Under the pieces are notes generated by a model. It had not been told where the DNA came from. It saw nothing but the letters and a program-made list of their open reading frames with translations, and ran no database searches. The position numbers and the translations under genes were made by a program. DNA of 27,416 nucleotides from a virus, in IMG/VR virus record IMGVR_UViG_3300020424_000022, positions 1 through 27,416 of that record; one strand, 5' to 3'. Shown piece by piece: positions 9,740-27,416 of the stretch (position 1 is its first letter; each line of letters starts with the position of its first letter).

Positions 9740-12700
9740 GTGTCTCGAGCGCTACAAAGAAGTCAAGGAAGAATACCTAACAGTAATGTCTTCATAACCG
9801 TATTAGAAGCTGCTGACGAGCAAGAACAACAAGAACTCTTTCAACAAAAAATAAAAGAATTAATTACTCGTTATGGAGCAGTTAATAATATTCCTACCAA
9901 TATAAATTTTGAAATTACCGGCTCAGGTGCTCCTAGTGTTAGTGGCGGCGGTGGTTTTTCTTTAACAGAACCAATAGAGGCAAAAGATAAAAGTTTCGCT
10001 GAAAGATTTACAGACTCTCTTGTAGCGGGAGCTAGAGATTACAGTAGAACAATTAAAAATATAGACGATTTTGGTTATGGCACTGATCAAGAAATAGAAA
10101 GCGCACTTAAAGCTGAACGACAAGCAGAATTAGAAGATGAAATTAAATATGGCAAACGTACTTCTTTTCAAGATTTAATAGACGCTTATAACTCTCCTAA
10201 TAGAGACGATTTAGCTAAAAGTTTTGGTGGCACGCTTATTGATTATGCTGGAGAAAATGTAGCTTACTCACTTCCAGCCATGGGTACAATCGCAGCAGGG
10301 GCTGCCGTCGGATCTTTTTTACCCGGAGTAGGAACTCTTGTCGGAGCAGCGATTGGTGCTACTCTTGTGGCACTGCCTTATTTTTTTGGACAAAATTTAG
10401 AAAGACAAGTTGAAACTTTAGACGAACAAGGTCTTGATTTAACTGATGGCAACATAAACACCACTGGAGCTTTTTTTACGGGGTTAGCACAAGGCGCTAC
10501 TGAATCTATTTTATTTCTACTGTTTGGCGGCATGGGTGGAACTCCTGCAAAAATGGTTGCTGGAGAGTTGCGTAAAAATTTAGCTATTGGTGCAAAAGAA
10601 ATAGCTAAAACCACAGCAATATCGGCTCCTGTAGAAGCGACTACTGAAATAACTCAACAATTATTAGAAAGATTACAAGCAGGTTTACCTATAAGTCCTA
10701 GTGATGAAGCAGCTTTAAGAGAATATATTGAATCAGGAGCTGCGGGTTTTATAACTGGTCCCGCTGTAACTGGCCCATTAGAAACTGTTCGACAAACTTC
10801 TCGTGGAATTACTGCACAACCTTCTCAAGAACAAGTTAAAAATAATTACAATGAAAAAATTCAAGAACTTCAAGAAGAATTAAATAAACATTCAAAAAAT
10901 CAACCCCTTGATCCAAATTCTGCAGAATATGAACAATGGAATAATACTAAAGAAAAAATAGAAGAAGTATTACTTTCTGTACAAACTAGTTTAAAAAGTT
11001 TTGAGGAAGGCACGATTGTAGAAAAAAGAAGACAAGAAAAAGCAGAGAAAGGAGAAGACATAAATAAAGAAAAACAATTTGAATTTGATCTACCTGAAGC
11101 TCCTTATAAATTTGATGATCCTACAATAAAAGAAACCGAAATTAAAAATTCAGTTATGGCTGTGCCAGAAGTTGTTCCTTTTAACAACTTACCTGGAGAT
11201 GCAAAAGTTAGATTGTTTTTTGGTAGAGAAGAAGTTGTAAAAGATGAAACTGGAAAAATTGTTTTTGATGAGAATGGAGAAGCGATTACAGAAATTATTA
11301 ACTTAAAAGATAAAGACGGTTTTAACGTTTACAAAGATTACATGGTTGAAGAGTTTATTGATACACCTGATGGTAAAGTAGACAAAGCAGAACCAAACGA
11401 AAGATTATTCAGCCAAATGCAAATAGAACATGAGGGCAAAACTTATCAACCATTTTGGAAAAAGGGCACTCTTTCTTTTGCTGAAATACAAATGTCTAAA
11501 GAACCTTTGTTTAGAGTGTCTTCTGACAACAAACCTTCTCATAATAAAATTAAACCTTTACTTCTACCCAGTAAACCAAAATTAAGAAAATTAGCTGAAC
11601 GTTTAGGGATTAAATACACCGACAAAACTTTAGATGAACAACAAGAAGCTAGAGCATGGTTGAATCACATAACTGCTAGAGGAGCAAGATTTTTTACTCC
11701 GCAAAGAGGAGTGCCTATTATATCTTGGAGTGAATTAATGCGAAAACGTTGGTTTACTAGAGAGCAACTTGAAAAAGCAAAAGGACTTAGTAAAAGAATA
11801 AACTTAGGAATAAAAACCGCAGAGAAAAATAAAAAAAGTATTTTAAATACTCTTGAACAAAGTGTTGATGGTCTTGGTTTAGGTAAAGAACTTTATGCTT
11901 CTTATTTAAGTAATACACCTTTTGGAAATATAAAAGTAACTCCAAAGTTGTTAAAAGAGTATGGCTTTGATAGAAATACAATAGCAGCCATGATAAAAAT
12001 GCGTCGTCTCATAGATCAAAACTCAAGAGAAATAGAAAGTCTAATAAGAGAATTAGATCCAGAAGCTGAAATTTGGAGTGAAGAACTTAGAGAAACAATT
12101 AGAAATAGATTAGGAGCATACATAACAAAGTCCTACGAAATAAATGTAAATCCAGAATATATTAAAAACGATTTATTTGCTCTAACTTTTAACAGACCCA
12201 ACGGTGCACTTGCAAGTAAAGAACAAAAACGCAAACATCTTTCAGCAAAAAAAATACTTTCAGAAGATTTATTTAAAAAAGGTAGAGTGTCTTCTAAACT
12301 TGAAGCGGATAAAAAAGCAGAAGAGATGTTAAATAATTTATATGATAGACAGTTAAGCGCACAACAACTTACTGAAGCAATGGAAATGGACAGCTCTACT
12401 CGAAAGGCAGATGCTCAAGAAGTAGAAATAGATATTAGTGACGATATTCTTAAAGCCAGACAAGAACTAAAACCTGAAATAGAAGAGTTGCTTGGAATAA
12501 TAAAAGACCCGAACATTAATGACGTCATCACCGCTTTTAAACAAACAGAATTTATTTCAGGTGTTAAATATATAAATGATTTATTTAACATAGCTAATGA
12601 CCCAAACAATAGATTAATCTCTCCAGTTAAAGACGGTAGATTTAATGTAAAGATAACTGGTAACGAAGTTAGTAATCCATTTGTAGGCTACTACACCATT

Positions 12701-14956: not shown

Positions 14957-15669
14957 ATTTTTTCATTTGGATCAGTAAAAATATTCTCTGCCCAATACTG
15001 ATCTACTTTCTTCAACCAATCTTCACTGACACGTTTAAATTCATCCCCTTGAATTACAAACTCTTGATAATTTAAATCAACCGAGCACATCAAGATTGCT
15101 CCTTTTTGTATGTCGGTGCCATACATTGCATTGTGCGCCAAGGCATAAGCCACTAACTGATAAAAATAATCTTGAATCCACTCACGGCGTTTGGGTTTGT
15201 TGGTTTGTTTAAAGTCCATAATAGCTGGCTGACCTTCAAAGATCCCAATCACATCAGCTTTCCCAGCGTATTTATCTGTATTAAACAGTGATACTTCACA
15301 GCCATAGACTTGACCGATCCTGGGAAAACCTTCATCCATTATTTTACAGGCCATCTTGTACGCCTGTTTTTCATCAGGACTATCTGGACGATAGTCCCAA
15401 AGATTCCCATTGACTATTTGTTTTTCTAATATGTAGTGCATATTAGTACCACGTATAGCCGCTTCTTGTCTTATTCTGTTCGCTTCTTCTTCACCAACTC
15501 GTTCTATCCATTGTTTTATTCCGTCGTTATCTTCTTTTGTCTTTGATAAAATTGAAGTCACCGAGGGCAGTTTATGTCCATGACAATCATAGAAACGTCC
15601 TTCCGGACGGTCCTCACTTGTAAAGTCATTGTACGTATACGGTGACTCGTATTTAATTACGTGCTTCAT
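14953..15669 (-). CDS. PD-(D/E)XK exonuclease (RecB/AddB-like)
   Basis: A 238-residue nuclease. It has RGTNMH (His78), GCEVSL (Glu125), GKADV (Asp139), MDFKQ (Asp152 and Lys154) and QLVAY (Gln171, Tyr175). This is the full H, E, D, DxK, QxxxY order of RecB-type PD-(D/E)XK nucleases. In phages such an enzyme commonly degrades host DNA, or resects double-strand ends for recombination and packaging, like T7 gp6 or lambda Exo. It is last in the - strand replication operon, and its ATG overlaps the small gene before it by 4 bases (ATGA). Its 3' end overlaps the convergent 1738-residue gene with no terminator visible between them. Extra cysteines lie at Cys29, Cys108, Cys124 and Cys195, but they do not form the four-Cys Fe-S pattern of AddB. 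Confidence 0.9.
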   Translation of the reverse strand: MKHVIKYESPYTYNDFTSEDRPEGRFYDCHGHKLPSVTSILSKTKEDNDGIKQWIERVGEEEANRIRQEAAIRGTNMHYILEKQIVNGNLWDYRPDSPDEKQAYKMACKIMDEGFPRIGQVYGCEVSLFNTDKYAGKADVIGIFEGQPAIMDFKQTNKPKRREWIQDYFYQLVAYALAHNAMYGTDIQKGAILMCSVDLNYQEFVIQGDEFKRVSEDWLKKVDQYWAENIFTDPNEKI

Positions 15670-15836
15670 GCTTTCGGCACTTCTTTTAATTTACCTTCTT
15701 TCATCTCTTGAGCGAGACGTTTTACAGCGAAAGCAAATACATTACTCGTAGGTCGTTCTGTCTTCTCACCAATGTCAGCAGCCAGTTCAACTATCTCTTT
15801 ACGTATTGCTACGCTTTTCCATTTTGTAGTATCCAT
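15666..15836 (-). CDS. Small ribbon-helix-helix-like protein (56 aa)
   Basis: A 56-residue ORF with a GAGG ribosome-binding core about seven bases before the ATG. The product begins MDTTKWKSVAIRKEIVELAADIG, continues ERPTSNVFAFAVKRLAQEMKEG and ends KEVPKA. A short strand (WKSVAIR) followed by two helices is the layout of CopG/Arc-type ribbon-helix-helix proteins, which dimerise and bind operators. It lies between the DNA polymerase and the nuclease and overlaps the nuclease start by 4 bases. It is the only transcription-factor-like protein in the window, so it is a candidate regulator of the replication operon. The fold is inferred from pattern only. Confidence 0.6.
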   Translation of the reverse strand: MDTTKWKSVAIRKEIVELAADIGEKTERPTSNVFAFAVKRLAQEMKEGKLKEVPKA

Positions 15837-15854: not shown

Positions 15855-17720
15855 TTAATCATTTGATGACTCCATCGAGTCACCCCAGTTTTTGCCAACC
15901 TCTGCATCTACCTTATTAGGTACACACAAGGGTACAGCATCCTCCATAAGTTTACTTATCTCTGCTACGTCCTCATCCGAGGCCACAGAAAAGACAAGCT
16001 CATCATGAACTTGTAACAGTGGCATGTAACCTGCTTGATAACAGTCCACCATAGCCTTTTTGGTCATGTCTGCCGCAGAACCTTGAATTAGTTTGTTTAG
16101 TGCTTTATAAACAAAAGCCCTTTTTATTTCACCATTATACTCGTGTATAGCTTCTTTGTATTTCATCGGTCTACCCGTGCCATACTTCACTGGTTCCCAC
16201 ATATCAAAGTGACAACGCCTACCTAGTAAAGTTTTGATGTAACCTTTTTGATTTGCACTACGCATAACAGAGTCAGCTAACTGACGCACAAAGGGAGCAT
16301 AAGTATTAAACTTACTTAACACTTCTGCTGCTTCATCTAGGGTAACACCTAACTGATCGGCTAGTTTACCTTTACCCATACCATACATAATCCCTAAACC
16401 AATGGTCTTAGCTGTGCTTCGATCAATACCTACCAAGGTGGCCACCTCTTGATGAAAGTCTGCGTCGCCTTCTCGATAGGCATCCGCAATAATATCTGCT
16501 CCTTCATACTTGGATAAGTCTGAGTAGTGCGTTAGTATTCTTGGCTCTTGCTGACTAAAGTCTGCCGAACACCAGCGCTCTCCTTCTTCCGGTAGAAACA
16601 ACGAGCGAATCAAAGGACCAATACGTTTATTACGTGCTGGTACTTGCTGTAAGTTTGGATTGCTCATGGACAACCGACCAGTGACTGTGCCACCAGATTC
16701 ACCTTTGAGCTGTCTAATCTCTGCGTGTATCCTGCCTTTGTACTCATGTTTTAAAATAGAATCAATAAATGTGCTGTGAGATTTGTTGAGCTCCCTAACT
16801 TCTCTAATCATAGCGGCCACTGGATGCGTATGATTCTCTAAGAAAGCTTTAGTAAAACTAGGTTGTCCAGTAGGTGTGCGCAGATAACTTAACTTCAAAG
16901 CATCAAATACTTTTGCCAACGAACGTGCTGCCCAGATTTGTATATCTTTTACTCCAGAGTCTTGTTCTATCTGTTTCAATAGTTTCTTCTCTTTACTAAT
17001 TAAATCTTTCTTAATTAGTTCCGCACGTTCTAAATCCACGCGTACCCCTGTGCGTTTCATGTCCATAATCAAAGGCAAGACATCCATTTCTAAATCAAAC
17101 ACATTCCAAAGGTTTTGATTTTCTAGCTCTACCTTAAAATAATTCCAGAGTTTTAGTGTGAGCGCTGCATCCTGAGTAGCATAAGTGCCTACATAAGCCG
17201 AGGGTAGACGCCACATTTCAGCTTTCGGATCCAGTCCCCACTCTGCTGCAGCTTCATTTAACTCTGTCTCAGTCTTGCCTTCATTCAAATACATACGCCC
17301 CAAAGCATTTAACGAATATGAATAGTGATTCTCATCCACCAGAGGTGCAATAATCATAGTATCAATAATCCTACCGTTAACTTTTATGCCCAAAGCTTCT
17401 AGCCAACCTACATCGTAAGTGGAGTTGTGAAATATTTTATCGTTGTTACTGGCACAAACTTTCTTAATAAAGTTAACCACTTTGTTTTTAGGAAAGTTGA
17501 AACCAGTTTCATGGCCAAATGGAAAGTAGTTCTCAAACCCATCGCAAGCCACGGCAATACCTACGACTTCACCATCACCTCTAATATAACCAGGACCCAT
17601 GGACATAAGGTTTGGGTCTCTAGTTTCTAAATCTATTGCTACTTCTTTAGACTTTACTAATAGTTCAGTAGGAAAAGTGTCTGGTGCAATCCATTCAGTT
17701 GCTGGTTTAAATACGCTCAT
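15855..17720 (-). CDS. polA: Family A DNA polymerase with 3'-5' exonuclease
   Basis: A 621-residue replicative polymerase without a 5'-3' exonuclease domain, the size class of T7 and marine podovirus enzymes. Exonuclease residues: Asp30/Glu32 (VAIDLE), Asp103 (HNSTYD) and Asp184 (YATQD). Polymerase motif A is CSADFSQQEPR with Asp387. Motif B runs from Arg434 through Lys438 to Tyr446. Motif C is VHDEL with Asp573/Glu574. Counting from Lys438 (E. coli K758), the residue equal to E. coli Phe762 is Leu442. It follows the helicase gene with a 4-base ATGA overlap. Coupling to primase, helicase and SSB genes makes it the phage replicase. Confidence 0.96.
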   Translation of the reverse strand: MSVFKPATEWIAPDTFPTELLVKSKEVAIDLETRDPNLMSMGPGYIRGDGEVVGIAVACDGFENYFPFGHETGFNFPKNKVVNFIKKVCASNNDKIFHNSTYDVGWLEALGIKVNGRIIDTMIIAPLVDENHYSYSLNALGRMYLNEGKTETELNEAAAEWGLDPKAEMWRLPSAYVGTYATQDAALTLKLWNYFKVELENQNLWNVFDLEMDVLPLIMDMKRTGVRVDLERAELIKKDLISKEKKLLKQIEQDSGVKDIQIWAARSLAKVFDALKLSYLRTPTGQPSFTKAFLENHTHPVAAMIREVRELNKSHSTFIDSILKHEYKGRIHAEIRQLKGESGGTVTGRLSMSNPNLQQVPARNKRIGPLIRSLFLPEEGERWCSADFSQQEPRILTHYSDLSKYEGADIIADAYREGDADFHQEVATLVGIDRSTAKTIGLGIMYGMGKGKLADQLGVTLDEAAEVLSKFNTYAPFVRQLADSVMRSANQKGYIKTLLGRRCHFDMWEPVKYGTGRPMKYKEAIHEYNGEIKRAFVYKALNKLIQGSAADMTKKAMVDCYQAGYMPLLQVHDELVFSVASDEDVAEISKLMEDAVPLCVPNKVDAEVGKNWGDSMESSND

Positions 17721-19264
17721 ACTAAATACCTATAGTTGTCGTTTCTAGCTTTAACTAAATACAAATTTTCTAATGCTCTAGTCACTGCTACATAAAATTG
17801 TCGGTGCAGCCCATCGGGTTTTAAAATAAAATCCTCTTGCTGTGCAGGAGATAAATCCAGCAATACAGCAACATTCTCTGCCTCTCCACCTTTGGCTTGA
17901 TGAATAGTAGAGATAGCTATTCTAGGCTCACCAAACAAATCCTCGTTGTTTGCTTTTGCTTTCTCAATGAAAGCTCGACGTTGTACGTCAATACTCTTAG
18001 TAAAGATGTCTTGCCAATCCTTAGCTAAACATTCTTCTTTTAGTCCGTACATATCTATTATTTGTTGTGTCGTTACTTCTTGTGCTTTGTTTTCTTCATT
18101 TAATACTTTAGTTATAAAACCTCGTTTAACATGTTCTTTACCTAAATAAGAATATAAATCTCCTAATTCACCTACTGTTAACTTACCTTCAGTGTTTAGT
18201 TTATCCCAAGCCGTCATAGCTGAAATCATTTTGTAAGGTATGTAACGATAGTGGTTGTGAGAAAAAGGATAACCATTGTCGATCAAATACTTTCTAATAC
18301 TGTAACCCTTATCAGCATCCGATAACATGTAATCACAAGAAGCTAACACTAACCACTGACCTTCTTTCAAAGGCAATAAATTTATCGAGGGCACTTCATT
18401 AACAGTGCCTTCTTGTTTTCTAGGCTTGTAAGTTTTTTCTTCACGAGCTTTTATTTTTTTAGAAATAGTTTCTGCTACGTCGTGTACCTTTCTTGGCACT
18501 CGAAACGATTGATCCAAAACAATCTTTGTACCTTCGTAATCTATAAAGCGTTTAGGCTTGGCTCCGTTCCATTCGTAAATGGCTTGATCGTCATCCCCGG
18601 CGATGTATACCAGTTCAACGCTGTTGGCTATCTTTTCAACCAATCTCCAGTTAAGTTCAGCTAAGTCTTGGGCCTCATCGACTATGAGTACCTTTAAGTT
18701 AGGAGTTGTACCTTCGGTCAGAAACTTAGTAATCATGTCTGCAAACGAATAAATTACGGGGACACTAGCCAGGCGATACTCTTCCCACGCCTCAGCCACA
18801 GCTTTTAAAATAACTGGGGTCACGTCCTTACGTAACCCGACTAGTGTCGATAGTCTTTCTTCTTCTACAGTCTGACAATTTGTCTTTGCGTTCTCTATAA
18901 TTTGGAAATACGGATCTTCGACCAAGGACTTGATACTACGTCGATTCTCCATGTTGTATTTCTTGGTTAAATTAAAACTGTACGCCTCTAAAAAATCTCT
19001 GACGTCCTCACCTGACATCACCCGACCAATACCCATAACTCGTTTACAGAAAGCATGGCTGGTACAGAAGTAAGGCATCTCATCAAAACCTAGCCCTAGG
19101 AGCGCATTAGCCCTCGTTTTAGCCTCGTTTGCAGCTTTGACCGAATAAGATATAAAAGCCATTTCATCGGGCTGTATGCCCCTCTCTAGGTGGTTCTCGA
19201 CTAAGCTTAACAACTTGGTAGTCTTACCCGTGCCAGGTGGACCAAAGTATTTAATTACTCCCAT
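17717..19264 (-). CDS. SF1 helicase, UvrD/Rep-like
   Basis: A 515-residue 3'-5' type superfamily 1A helicase. Motif I is GPPGTGKTT (residues 8-16), motif II VDEAQD (195-200), motif III GDDDQAIYEWNGA (223-235) and motif IV QSFRVP (252-257). Motif V is STIHQAKGGEAE (452-463) and motif VI YVAVTRA (491-497). All are intact. Cellular UvrD and Rep are about 700 residues, so the 1B/2B insertions are reduced here. Its start overlaps the primase end by 10 bases and its stop overlaps the polymerase start. No DnaB-type helicase is seen in the window, so this enzyme may be the replicative helicase. A recombination or repair role is the alternative. Confidence 0.93.
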   Translation of the reverse strand: MGVIKYFGPPGTGKTTKLLSLVENHLERGIQPDEMAFISYSVKAANEAKTRANALLGLGFDEMPYFCTSHAFCKRVMGIGRVMSGEDVRDFLEAYSFNLTKKYNMENRRSIKSLVEDPYFQIIENAKTNCQTVEEERLSTLVGLRKDVTPVILKAVAEAWEEYRLASVPVIYSFADMITKFLTEGTTPNLKVLIVDEAQDLAELNWRLVEKIANSVELVYIAGDDDQAIYEWNGAKPKRFIDYEGTKIVLDQSFRVPRKVHDVAETISKKIKAREEKTYKPRKQEGTVNEVPSINLLPLKEGQWLVLASCDYMLSDADKGYSIRKYLIDNGYPFSHNHYRYIPYKMISAMTAWDKLNTEGKLTVGELGDLYSYLGKEHVKRGFITKVLNEENKAQEVTTQQIIDMYGLKEECLAKDWQDIFTKSIDVQRRAFIEKAKANNEDLFGEPRIAISTIHQAKGGEAENVAVLLDLSPAQQEDFILKPDGLHRQFYVAVTRALENLYLVKARNDNYRYLV

Positions 19265-26547: not shown

Positions 26548-26618
26548 TCAAGGACGGAGAATCACGGACCAAGGACAAAGGTCTTGTTGGGTGGATGTAT
26601 CGATTTCCTAGCAAGACC

Positions 26619-26847
26619 ACCTAATGTGAAAAAAACGTAGAAATTAGGTAAAAATTAGGTAAAAACAGGCTAAAAACCCTTTCCCATATACACTTAAAAT
26701 ATAATTTCACCTAATGTGAATGTGAGATTTTGTGATTTTTCTAGGAATGGACTATCAGGATTTAAGAATAAAATGACATTATGACATTATGTCACCCTGC
26801 AGCCCTTGTCCTATAAGGATTTCTACCTAATTTCTGCCACATTAGGT
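26619..26847. repeat. Six ACCTAAT heptamers (iteron-like)
   Basis: ACCTAAT lies on the + strand at 26619-26625, 26709-26715 and 26825-26831, and inverted (ATTAGGT) at 26643-26649, 26654-26660 and 26841-26847. Three of the six extend to ACCTAATGTG (26619, 26709, and inverted at 26838-26847). The copy at 26706-26720 forms the palindrome TTCACCTAATGTGAA. The inverted pair at 26641-26662 is a perfect tandem 11-mer. Confidence 0.88.
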
Positions 26848-26870
26848 TCACATTATGTACATTATGTGAA
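26773..26870. repeat. ACATTATG octamers in two tandem pairs
   Basis: ACATTATG occurs at 26776-26783 and 26784-26791 (8-base period), and at 26850-26857 and 26859-26866 (9-base period). The first pair ends in the palindrome TGACATTATGTCA (26782-26794). The second is bounded by TTCACA (26847-26852) and TGTGAA (26865-26870). The octamer is one base from ACATTAGG, the reverse complement of the core of the ACCTAATGT repeats, so both sets may derive from one binding site. Confidence 0.82.
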
Positions 26871-26908
26871 AAATAGTGCTATGATGAATACTTTCATATA
26901 ATCTCCTG

Positions 26909-26949
26909 CTTAGGCGACAACACTCCCCTACTCCCCCTTGTCGCCTAAG
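26909..26949 (+). other. 12-bp stem-loop with a C-rich loop before the terminase gene
   Basis: CTTAGGCGACAA at 26909-26920 and its exact reverse complement at 26938-26949 enclose a 17-base loop of nearly pure pyrimidines (CACTCCCCTACTCCCCC). The stem is followed by TCTGTTTTATG, a poor T-tract, so terminator strength is doubtful. A TATAAT at 26897-26902 ends six bases before the stem. It could be a 5' hairpin, a terminator or a terminase recognition structure. Confidence 0.82.
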
Positions 26950-26962
26950 TCTGTTTTATGTT

Positions 26963-26968
26963 TATAAT
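26963..26968 (+). promoter_or_regulatory. TATAAT box for the small terminase gene
   Basis: A perfect TATAAT ends seven bases before the ATG at 26976. A TTGTCG at 26938-26943 could serve as the -35 box but the spacer is long (19 bases), and it overlaps the right arm of the stem-loop. If used, the message would start at or next to the ATG. Confidence 0.4.
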
Positions 26969-26975
26969 ATTCTTG

Positions 26976-27416
26976 ATGGCAGAGAAAAAAGATAAAAAAT
27001 TAACCACAGCTTCCTTCGGTATCACCGATAAAGCCAAACGTTTTGCTGAAGAGTATGTCTACAATGATGGAAGCAAAACCAAAGAGGAGTGTGCAATCAC
27101 GGCAGGATATGCCAAAGAGTCGGCCTCTGTTAGAGCTTCTGAGCTTACTAATCCTCGTATGTTTCCTAAAGTAGTTAAATACATTGAGCATTTACAAAAC
27201 CAATTAGCAAATAAATATCAAGTTACCTATGGTAGACACATAAGAAAACTTGCAGAGATTAGAGACTTAGCTATTGAAAAAGGTAATTTTACCTCTGCTG
27301 TTGCTGCCGAAGTGCAACGAGGACGTGCTGCTGGCTTGTATGTTGAACGTAAAGAAATCAGAACAGGGTCCCTGGAGAGCTTATCGATAGAAGATTTAAA
27401 AACCAAAATTAAATCG
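26976..27416 (+). CDS. terS: Terminase small subunit (partial, runs off the window)
   Basis: 147 codons are visible with no stop, so the C-terminus is outside the window. Residues 17-60 (TDKAKRFAEEYVYNDGSKTKEECAITAGYAKESASVRASELTNP) match the N-terminal helix-turn-helix of Terminase_2-type small subunits, with the usual pattern of F..EY, then A...AGY, then ASVRASEL. Residues 75-125 form the helical oligomerisation region. The protein selects and binds the packaging site on phage DNA and feeds it to the large subunit, which should lie downstream. The start is ATG at 26976, with no Shine-Dalgarno sequence. The repeat region directly upstream is a natural candidate for its target. Confidence 0.88.
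   Translation, partial: MAEKKDKKLTTASFGITDKAKRFAEEYVYNDGSKTKEECAITAGYAKESASVRASELTNPRMFPKVVKYIEHLQNQLANKYQVTYGRHIRKLAEIRDLAIEKGNFTSAVAAEVQRGRAAGLYVERKEIRTGSLESLSIEDLKTKIKS

Follow-up and report, generated by a model that had tools for sequence, protein, structure and literature searches.

A repeat array of kept register and changing words before the small terminase gene of HTVC023P-related phages, a candidate pac-like site

How small terminases select their own genome is still debated. In SPP1, pac overlaps both the terS promoters and the segment of the gene encoding the DNA-binding domain (PMC6316719) and has three sets of direct repeats (PMC4737164). The TerS of SF6 can substitute for that of SPP1 despite their differing repeats; its binding to pac DNA is weak and shows no clear preference for sequence, and a model has been proposed in which pac is selected in these phages as bent DNA (PMC4737164). 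In the case of HK97, flexible N- and C-terminal segments of TerS read a bent A-tract (PMC11331095).

Here we have analysed the noncoding DNA before terS in an IMG/VR virus record of 27,416 bases, the whole of which is called the window and whose end falls within terS. The closest named relatives of the window are the HTVC023P-type pelagiphages and the freshwater phage DSL-LC04, and relatives reach about 60 kb (60,364 bases in G007). The noncoding stretch 5' of terS has about 410 bases and is the longest of five intergenic gaps above 100 nt in the ORF map; such gaps are few, in line with the claim of an earlier note on this DNA that the genome keeps almost no spacers elsewhere, although others besides this one do exist. 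Rfam and tRNA searches gave no match, and the search of bacterial genomes from which a host could be deduced found no relative. The locus contains these features (window coordinates):

26619-26867, no strand assigned: repeat array of ten 9-mer sites, at 26619(-), 26641(+), 26652(+), 26709(-), 26776(+), 26784(+), 26825(-), 26839(+), 26850(+) and 26859(+) (sequence, shuffles and column conservation)
26628-26677, no strand assigned: five A-tracts spaced 11-12 nt (sequence and wedge-model curvature)
26672-26693, no strand assigned: left core element AAAAACCCTTTCCCATATACAC, AAACCCTATATAC in other clades (cross-clade alignment and positions in other loci)
26750-26757, no strand assigned: GACTATCA, common to three word classes (cross-clade alignment)
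26810-26823, no strand assigned: right core element CCTATAAGGATTTC (invariant alignment columns; listed for most loci)
26856-26885, plus strand: weak promoter-like site TGTACA-18-TATGAT with an extended -10, overlapping the last two 9-mers (sequence)
26908-26950, plus strand: 13-bp hairpin with a C-rich loop (CUCCCC), followed by T-rich DNA (fold z-scores and paired base changes)
26963-26968, plus strand: TATAAT, with the likely start of a leaderless terS seven bases further on (deduced from the sequence)
26976-27416, plus strand: terS, cut by the record end; Terminase_2 family with an SF6/SPP1-type DNA-binding domain

The individual repeats reported in the earlier note were all found again: six ACCTAAT/ATTAGGT heptamers (26619-, 26643+, 26654+, 26709-, 26825-, 26841+), four ACATTATG octamers in two tandem pairs (26776/26784 and 26850/26859), a tandem 11-mer (26643/26654) and several palindromes. 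The array is real at 26619-26867, but the interval 26548-26975 first given for it was too wide, as 26548-26618 and the part 3' of 26867 lie outside. Both word families belong to one 9-mer family, ACATTA[GT]GT / AAATTAGGT, with ten sites on both strands set around two inverted CCTATA-type elements, and neighbours within the tandem groups lie 8-11 bp apart. One binding activity with variant sites, as had been proposed, is supported. The region is the most repeat-dense 350-nt interval in the record (z 8.4), and its excess of repeated 7- to 10-mers beats 2000 of 2000 dinucleotide-preserving shuffles, with 41 extra 8-mers against a shuffle mean of 4.8 and a maximum of 18. Moreover, ACATTA[GT]GT has six copies in the array and none elsewhere in the 27.4 kb, and in the genomes checked full 9-mers occur only, or almost only, in the array. 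A search for a regulon found no other intergenic copies of the array words and none at another promoter; the words are a single-locus feature, and a regulon was ruled out.

When nine sequences of the same clade were aligned (TerS 81-96% identical to that of the window), 92.5% of the columns were invariant at the sites as compared to 60.3% between them, and when the site mask was shifted circularly, the true register was the only one of 269 positions to reach such conservation. Conservation of the motifs despite drift between them, which had been suggested as a check of the array, therefore holds inside the clade but not beyond it. Loci with TerS at or below about 72% identity have a noncoding region of similar size (about 400 nt) with sites in register and different words:

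L018, L041 and L156: words AGGTGCGGT and AGGTTAGGT
L056: word AGGTTATGT
L045 and L055: word AACTGAGGT
L026 and L118: words ATTAGAT/ATTAGAC
L166-L186: word GTTAGGTCAGGTTAGA

The anchors common across clades are the two inverted CCTATA-type elements, about 110-130 bp apart in several clades, and GACTATCA in three classes. The right element is roughly the inverse of the left one and is the best conserved block across clades. An array lies 5' of terS in most lineages, including HTVC023P, whose replication genes have the opposite relation to terS, and the association with terS is a lasting one.

Some loci depart from this layout. In L077-L081 the array words continue past the start of terS into the 5' end of its coding sequence. 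In the L077 group, a protein with a stand-alone LexA DNA-binding domain (L077:5833-6057; PF01726, E 3.7e-12) is encoded just 5' of the GTAATACC repeats, and it is a possible alternative reader of these repeats there. In L044 an inserted PAPS reductase-like gene (1098-1858, recognised by eye) separates the promoter of the array from terS, so that array and terS need not directly adjoin. Other repeats were observed in two relatives, namely CAAGC-type clusters (CAAGCTTCAAGC) beside promoter-like sequences of early genes in HTVC027P (MN698241, ~16480-16560, 17380-17440 and 17710-17740) and tandem units of ~40 nt (CAAATCTTGAGAATACATACCGAAAATTTTTTG) just 3' of terS in HTVC023P (MN698239, ~12460-12580). 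The 84,189-base record L168 / G025 has two primase matches, 66% and 37% identical to the primase of the window, and may thus be a chimera or an unusual genome.

The predicted curvature of the window, from a dinucleotide wedge model that gave the expected result for control sequences with phased and unphased A-tracts, has its maximum at 26667, on the five A-tracts. The array region is also the genome maximum of predicted curvature in G011, G012 and HTVC023P, and reaches at least the 99.2nd percentile in G001, G007, G010, G004 and DSL-LC04. Of 97 loci, 82% have a stretch before terS that reaches the 99th percentile, whereas 13% of random stretches do so. When set against the other intergenic gaps above 100 nt, this stretch is the most curved in six of the seven genomes and comes second in G007. 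Intrinsic bending, which is a trait of SPP1/SF6-type pac sites, is accordingly predicted for the array; the predicted bend favours packaging but does not single it out, because origins and promoters can also be bent.

TerS matches Terminase_2 above the cutoff, and its DNA-binding domain matches the SF6 gp1 structures with an E-value of 1.6e-4 alone, which improves to 1.4e-5 when a profile is used. An orthologue was modelled at a mean pLDDT of 70; the model shows helices at 18-29, 36-42 and 47-57, and TerS proteins of the SF6/SPP1 type are its top three fold matches, with weak E-values. TerS is homologous to SPP1/SF6 gp1. The TerL of the relative G007 is closest, weakly, to T7-type large subunits and not to that of SPP1. 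As for the terS leader, promoter-like sites are no commoner than in shuffles, and the promoter assignment is therefore weak. The 13-bp hairpin, kept in the clade of the window only and placed between the promoter-like site and terS, has fold z-scores of -7.0 in the window, -6.1 in L007 and -5.3 in L015, with paired base changes between sublineages; it is terminator-like and could be the end of a small RNA or a terS attenuator. The TATAAT at 26963 suggests that the terS mRNA is leaderless, with its likely start at ATG 26976.

Recombinant pairs allowed us to follow what moves with the DNA-binding part of TerS. Between L026 and L045, identity is 96% in the C-terminal part of terS but drops to 66% in the DNA-binding part and to 26-39% in the upstream DNA. 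L026 and L123 show the opposite pattern, with 78% identity in the C-terminal part as compared to 97-99% in the DNA-binding part and the upstream DNA. This indicates that the array and the DNA-binding part can travel together, with a breakpoint within terS. In three other pairs (L130/L152, L030/L035 and L029/L033) the terS-proximal unit alone travels with the DNA-binding part and the distal aligned array stays. This exchange is the strongest evidence for a putative TerS-DNA pair beside the gene, and it is also the strongest evidence that the distal array may serve another role in that clade. An equal DNA-binding part with different proximal DNA was seen in twelve pairs, all of them involving L023, L040, L043 or L044; these loci carry extra DNA between array and terS, which puts fixed windows out of register.

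We have also considered which protein could read the words. A 56-residue RHH-like protein is encoded between polA and an exonuclease gene (window 15666-15836, minus strand) and has a homologue in 25 of the 25 genomes compared. It had been put forward as a candidate binder of the array but is an unlikely reader and was set aside, because its DNA-contacting beta strand, KWKSVAI, is identical in the aligned homologues, which span five word classes; since this strand is unchanged where inspected, its target should be a conserved sequence. TerS as reader is opposed by a near-identical recognition helix that accompanies different distal array words, but is partly reinstated by the terS-proximal repeats, which do change with the TerS domain. 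A loose match of helix and proximal word, made by eye after the fact, pairs VRASEL with TTATG or TTAGG, VSAAEL with CTGAG and VKAAEL with AGGTAA, but it fails in L081, where VRASEL goes with GTAATACC, and we place no weight on it. Across 20 genomes, which represent few independent clades, array distance correlates at r 0.83-0.88 with that of primase, helicase and PolA, at 0.82 with that of the DNA-binding part of TerS and at 0.72 with that of its C-terminal part. With TerS controlled for, the partial correlation of the replication proteins is 0.50, and with these controlled for, that of TerS is 0.25; an origin is therefore still a serious rival.

Both functions proposed in the earlier note, packaging and initiation, are supported as candidates. 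On a slight balance of probability we regard the array as a pac-like packaging recognition site in the manner of SPP1/SF6, which we favour over an origin because of the SPP1/SF6-type TerS, the linkage to terS, the predicted bent DNA and the cassette exchange. The extension of the words into the terS coding sequence in L077-L081 and their restriction to a single locus also speak for it. The main rival, which we hold to be rather unlikely, is an iteron-type replication origin in which a phage initiator, perhaps together with the AEP primase, would bind the 9-mers and the DNA would open near a core element. Such an origin would account for repeated sites in direct and inverted order at a single noncoding locus, for the predicted bend, for an array distance that follows the replication proteins best, and for the distal array being kept when the TerS domain is swapped. 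However, an initiator gene was not recognised among the window proteins searched, the replication genes lie several kb away in an orientation to the array that changes, and the terS-proximal repeats move with the DNA-binding part of TerS. Furthermore, neither the window nor G007 has an unusually AT-rich element that could serve for unwinding (AT content over 50 nt in the array is below the 99th genome percentile in both), and GC skew was discarded as an origin marker, as it follows gene direction and is uninformative. Against packaging it can be said that the three recombinant pairs keep the distal array while the DNA-binding part changes, that a near-identical recognition helix goes with different words, that array distance follows the replication proteins slightly better than TerS, that HTVC027P and 023Pt_psg01 lack a comparable array before terS, and that T7-type enzymes are the nearest, though weak, matches to the TerL of a relative.

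It is improbable that the array is an operator at which a phage regulator, or TerS itself, controls the terS promoter. In favour of it, the window has a promoter-like site over its last 9-mers, and the array of L044 precedes the inserted gene as well as terS; but promoter-like sites occur no more often than in shuffles, the spacing between the last site and the -10 box goes from 13 nt in the window to 32 nt in L018 and more than 100 nt in the W5 clade with the inner layout kept, no second copy was found at any other promoter, and ten sites over 250 bp are large for one small gene. We give very little credit to a fixed genome end between the inverted core elements, be it with cohesive ends or with a short direct terminal repeat arising from nicks at both, in spite of the inversion and spacing of these elements and the weak likeness of TerL to T7-type large subunits. 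Among 120 contigs, 11 end 100-400 nt 5' of terS (about 5 expected), all at different bases, no fixed end at one base was found near the array, and the 14 of 14 contigs matching the left-half array pattern were contigs already found via terS. A cos end is thus unlikely, and we rejected it, because the ends scatter and the pattern-matched contigs run on through terS. Direct terminal repeats are not argued against by the contig ends, because they leave no such trace, and the ends may be either permuted or short direct terminal repeats.

If the array is a packaging site, its phased A-tracts and its 9-mers, spaced at about one helical turn (9-11 bp), would present bent DNA on which several DNA-binding domains of the TerS ring could sit, TerL would cut at or near one conserved CCTATA-type core element, and headful packaging would start from the concatemer after this cut. 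It is possible, and we propose it tentatively, that these loci are packaging sites of one family, with constant register, core elements and curvature and with words that turn over by clade, that the TerS DNA-binding part and the nearest repeats make up one mobile cassette, and that some genomes carry a second independent array, maybe a replication origin. Such a family would be a natural series of rewired TerS-DNA pairs. With more than 100 homologous sites of shared layout and different words, and with recombinants swapping only the DNA-binding part of TerS, sequence reading and shape reading could be separated. Should the array be an origin after all, it would give an abundant marine phage group a candidate for the start site of its replication.

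As compared to iteron origins of phages and plasmids, such as SPP1 oriL/oriR, the array likewise has several short repeats in one noncoding stretch at a single locus, and it differs in that an initiator gene was not found, no AT-rich element is present in the window and the array is not beside the replication genes. HTVC023P, HTVC027P, 023Pt_psg01 and DSL-LC04 are distant relatives that also have terS apart from terL. No comparable array before terS was found in HTVC027P and 023Pt_psg01, whereas HTVC023P has a simpler one at its curvature maximum (CTAGGAA words at 11680-11770, in an intergenic gap of 546 nt before terS) and the gap preceding the terS operon of DSL-LC04 contains a 36-nt inverted repeat; the words of these phages are different from those of the window, their TerS is about 32-49% identical and their gene order differs. 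Finally, the locus is unlike the pac of SPP1/SF6 in its words, in its ten sites, which all belong to one 9-mer family, and its two inverted core elements, in a terS that is a lone gene several kb from terL, and in a TerL that is weakly closest to T7-type enzymes. With SPP1/SF6 it shares a homologous TerS DNA-binding domain, repeat sets 5' of and around the terS promoter (whose assignment here is weak), bent DNA, here predicted, and a layout that persists while the repeats drift between relatives.
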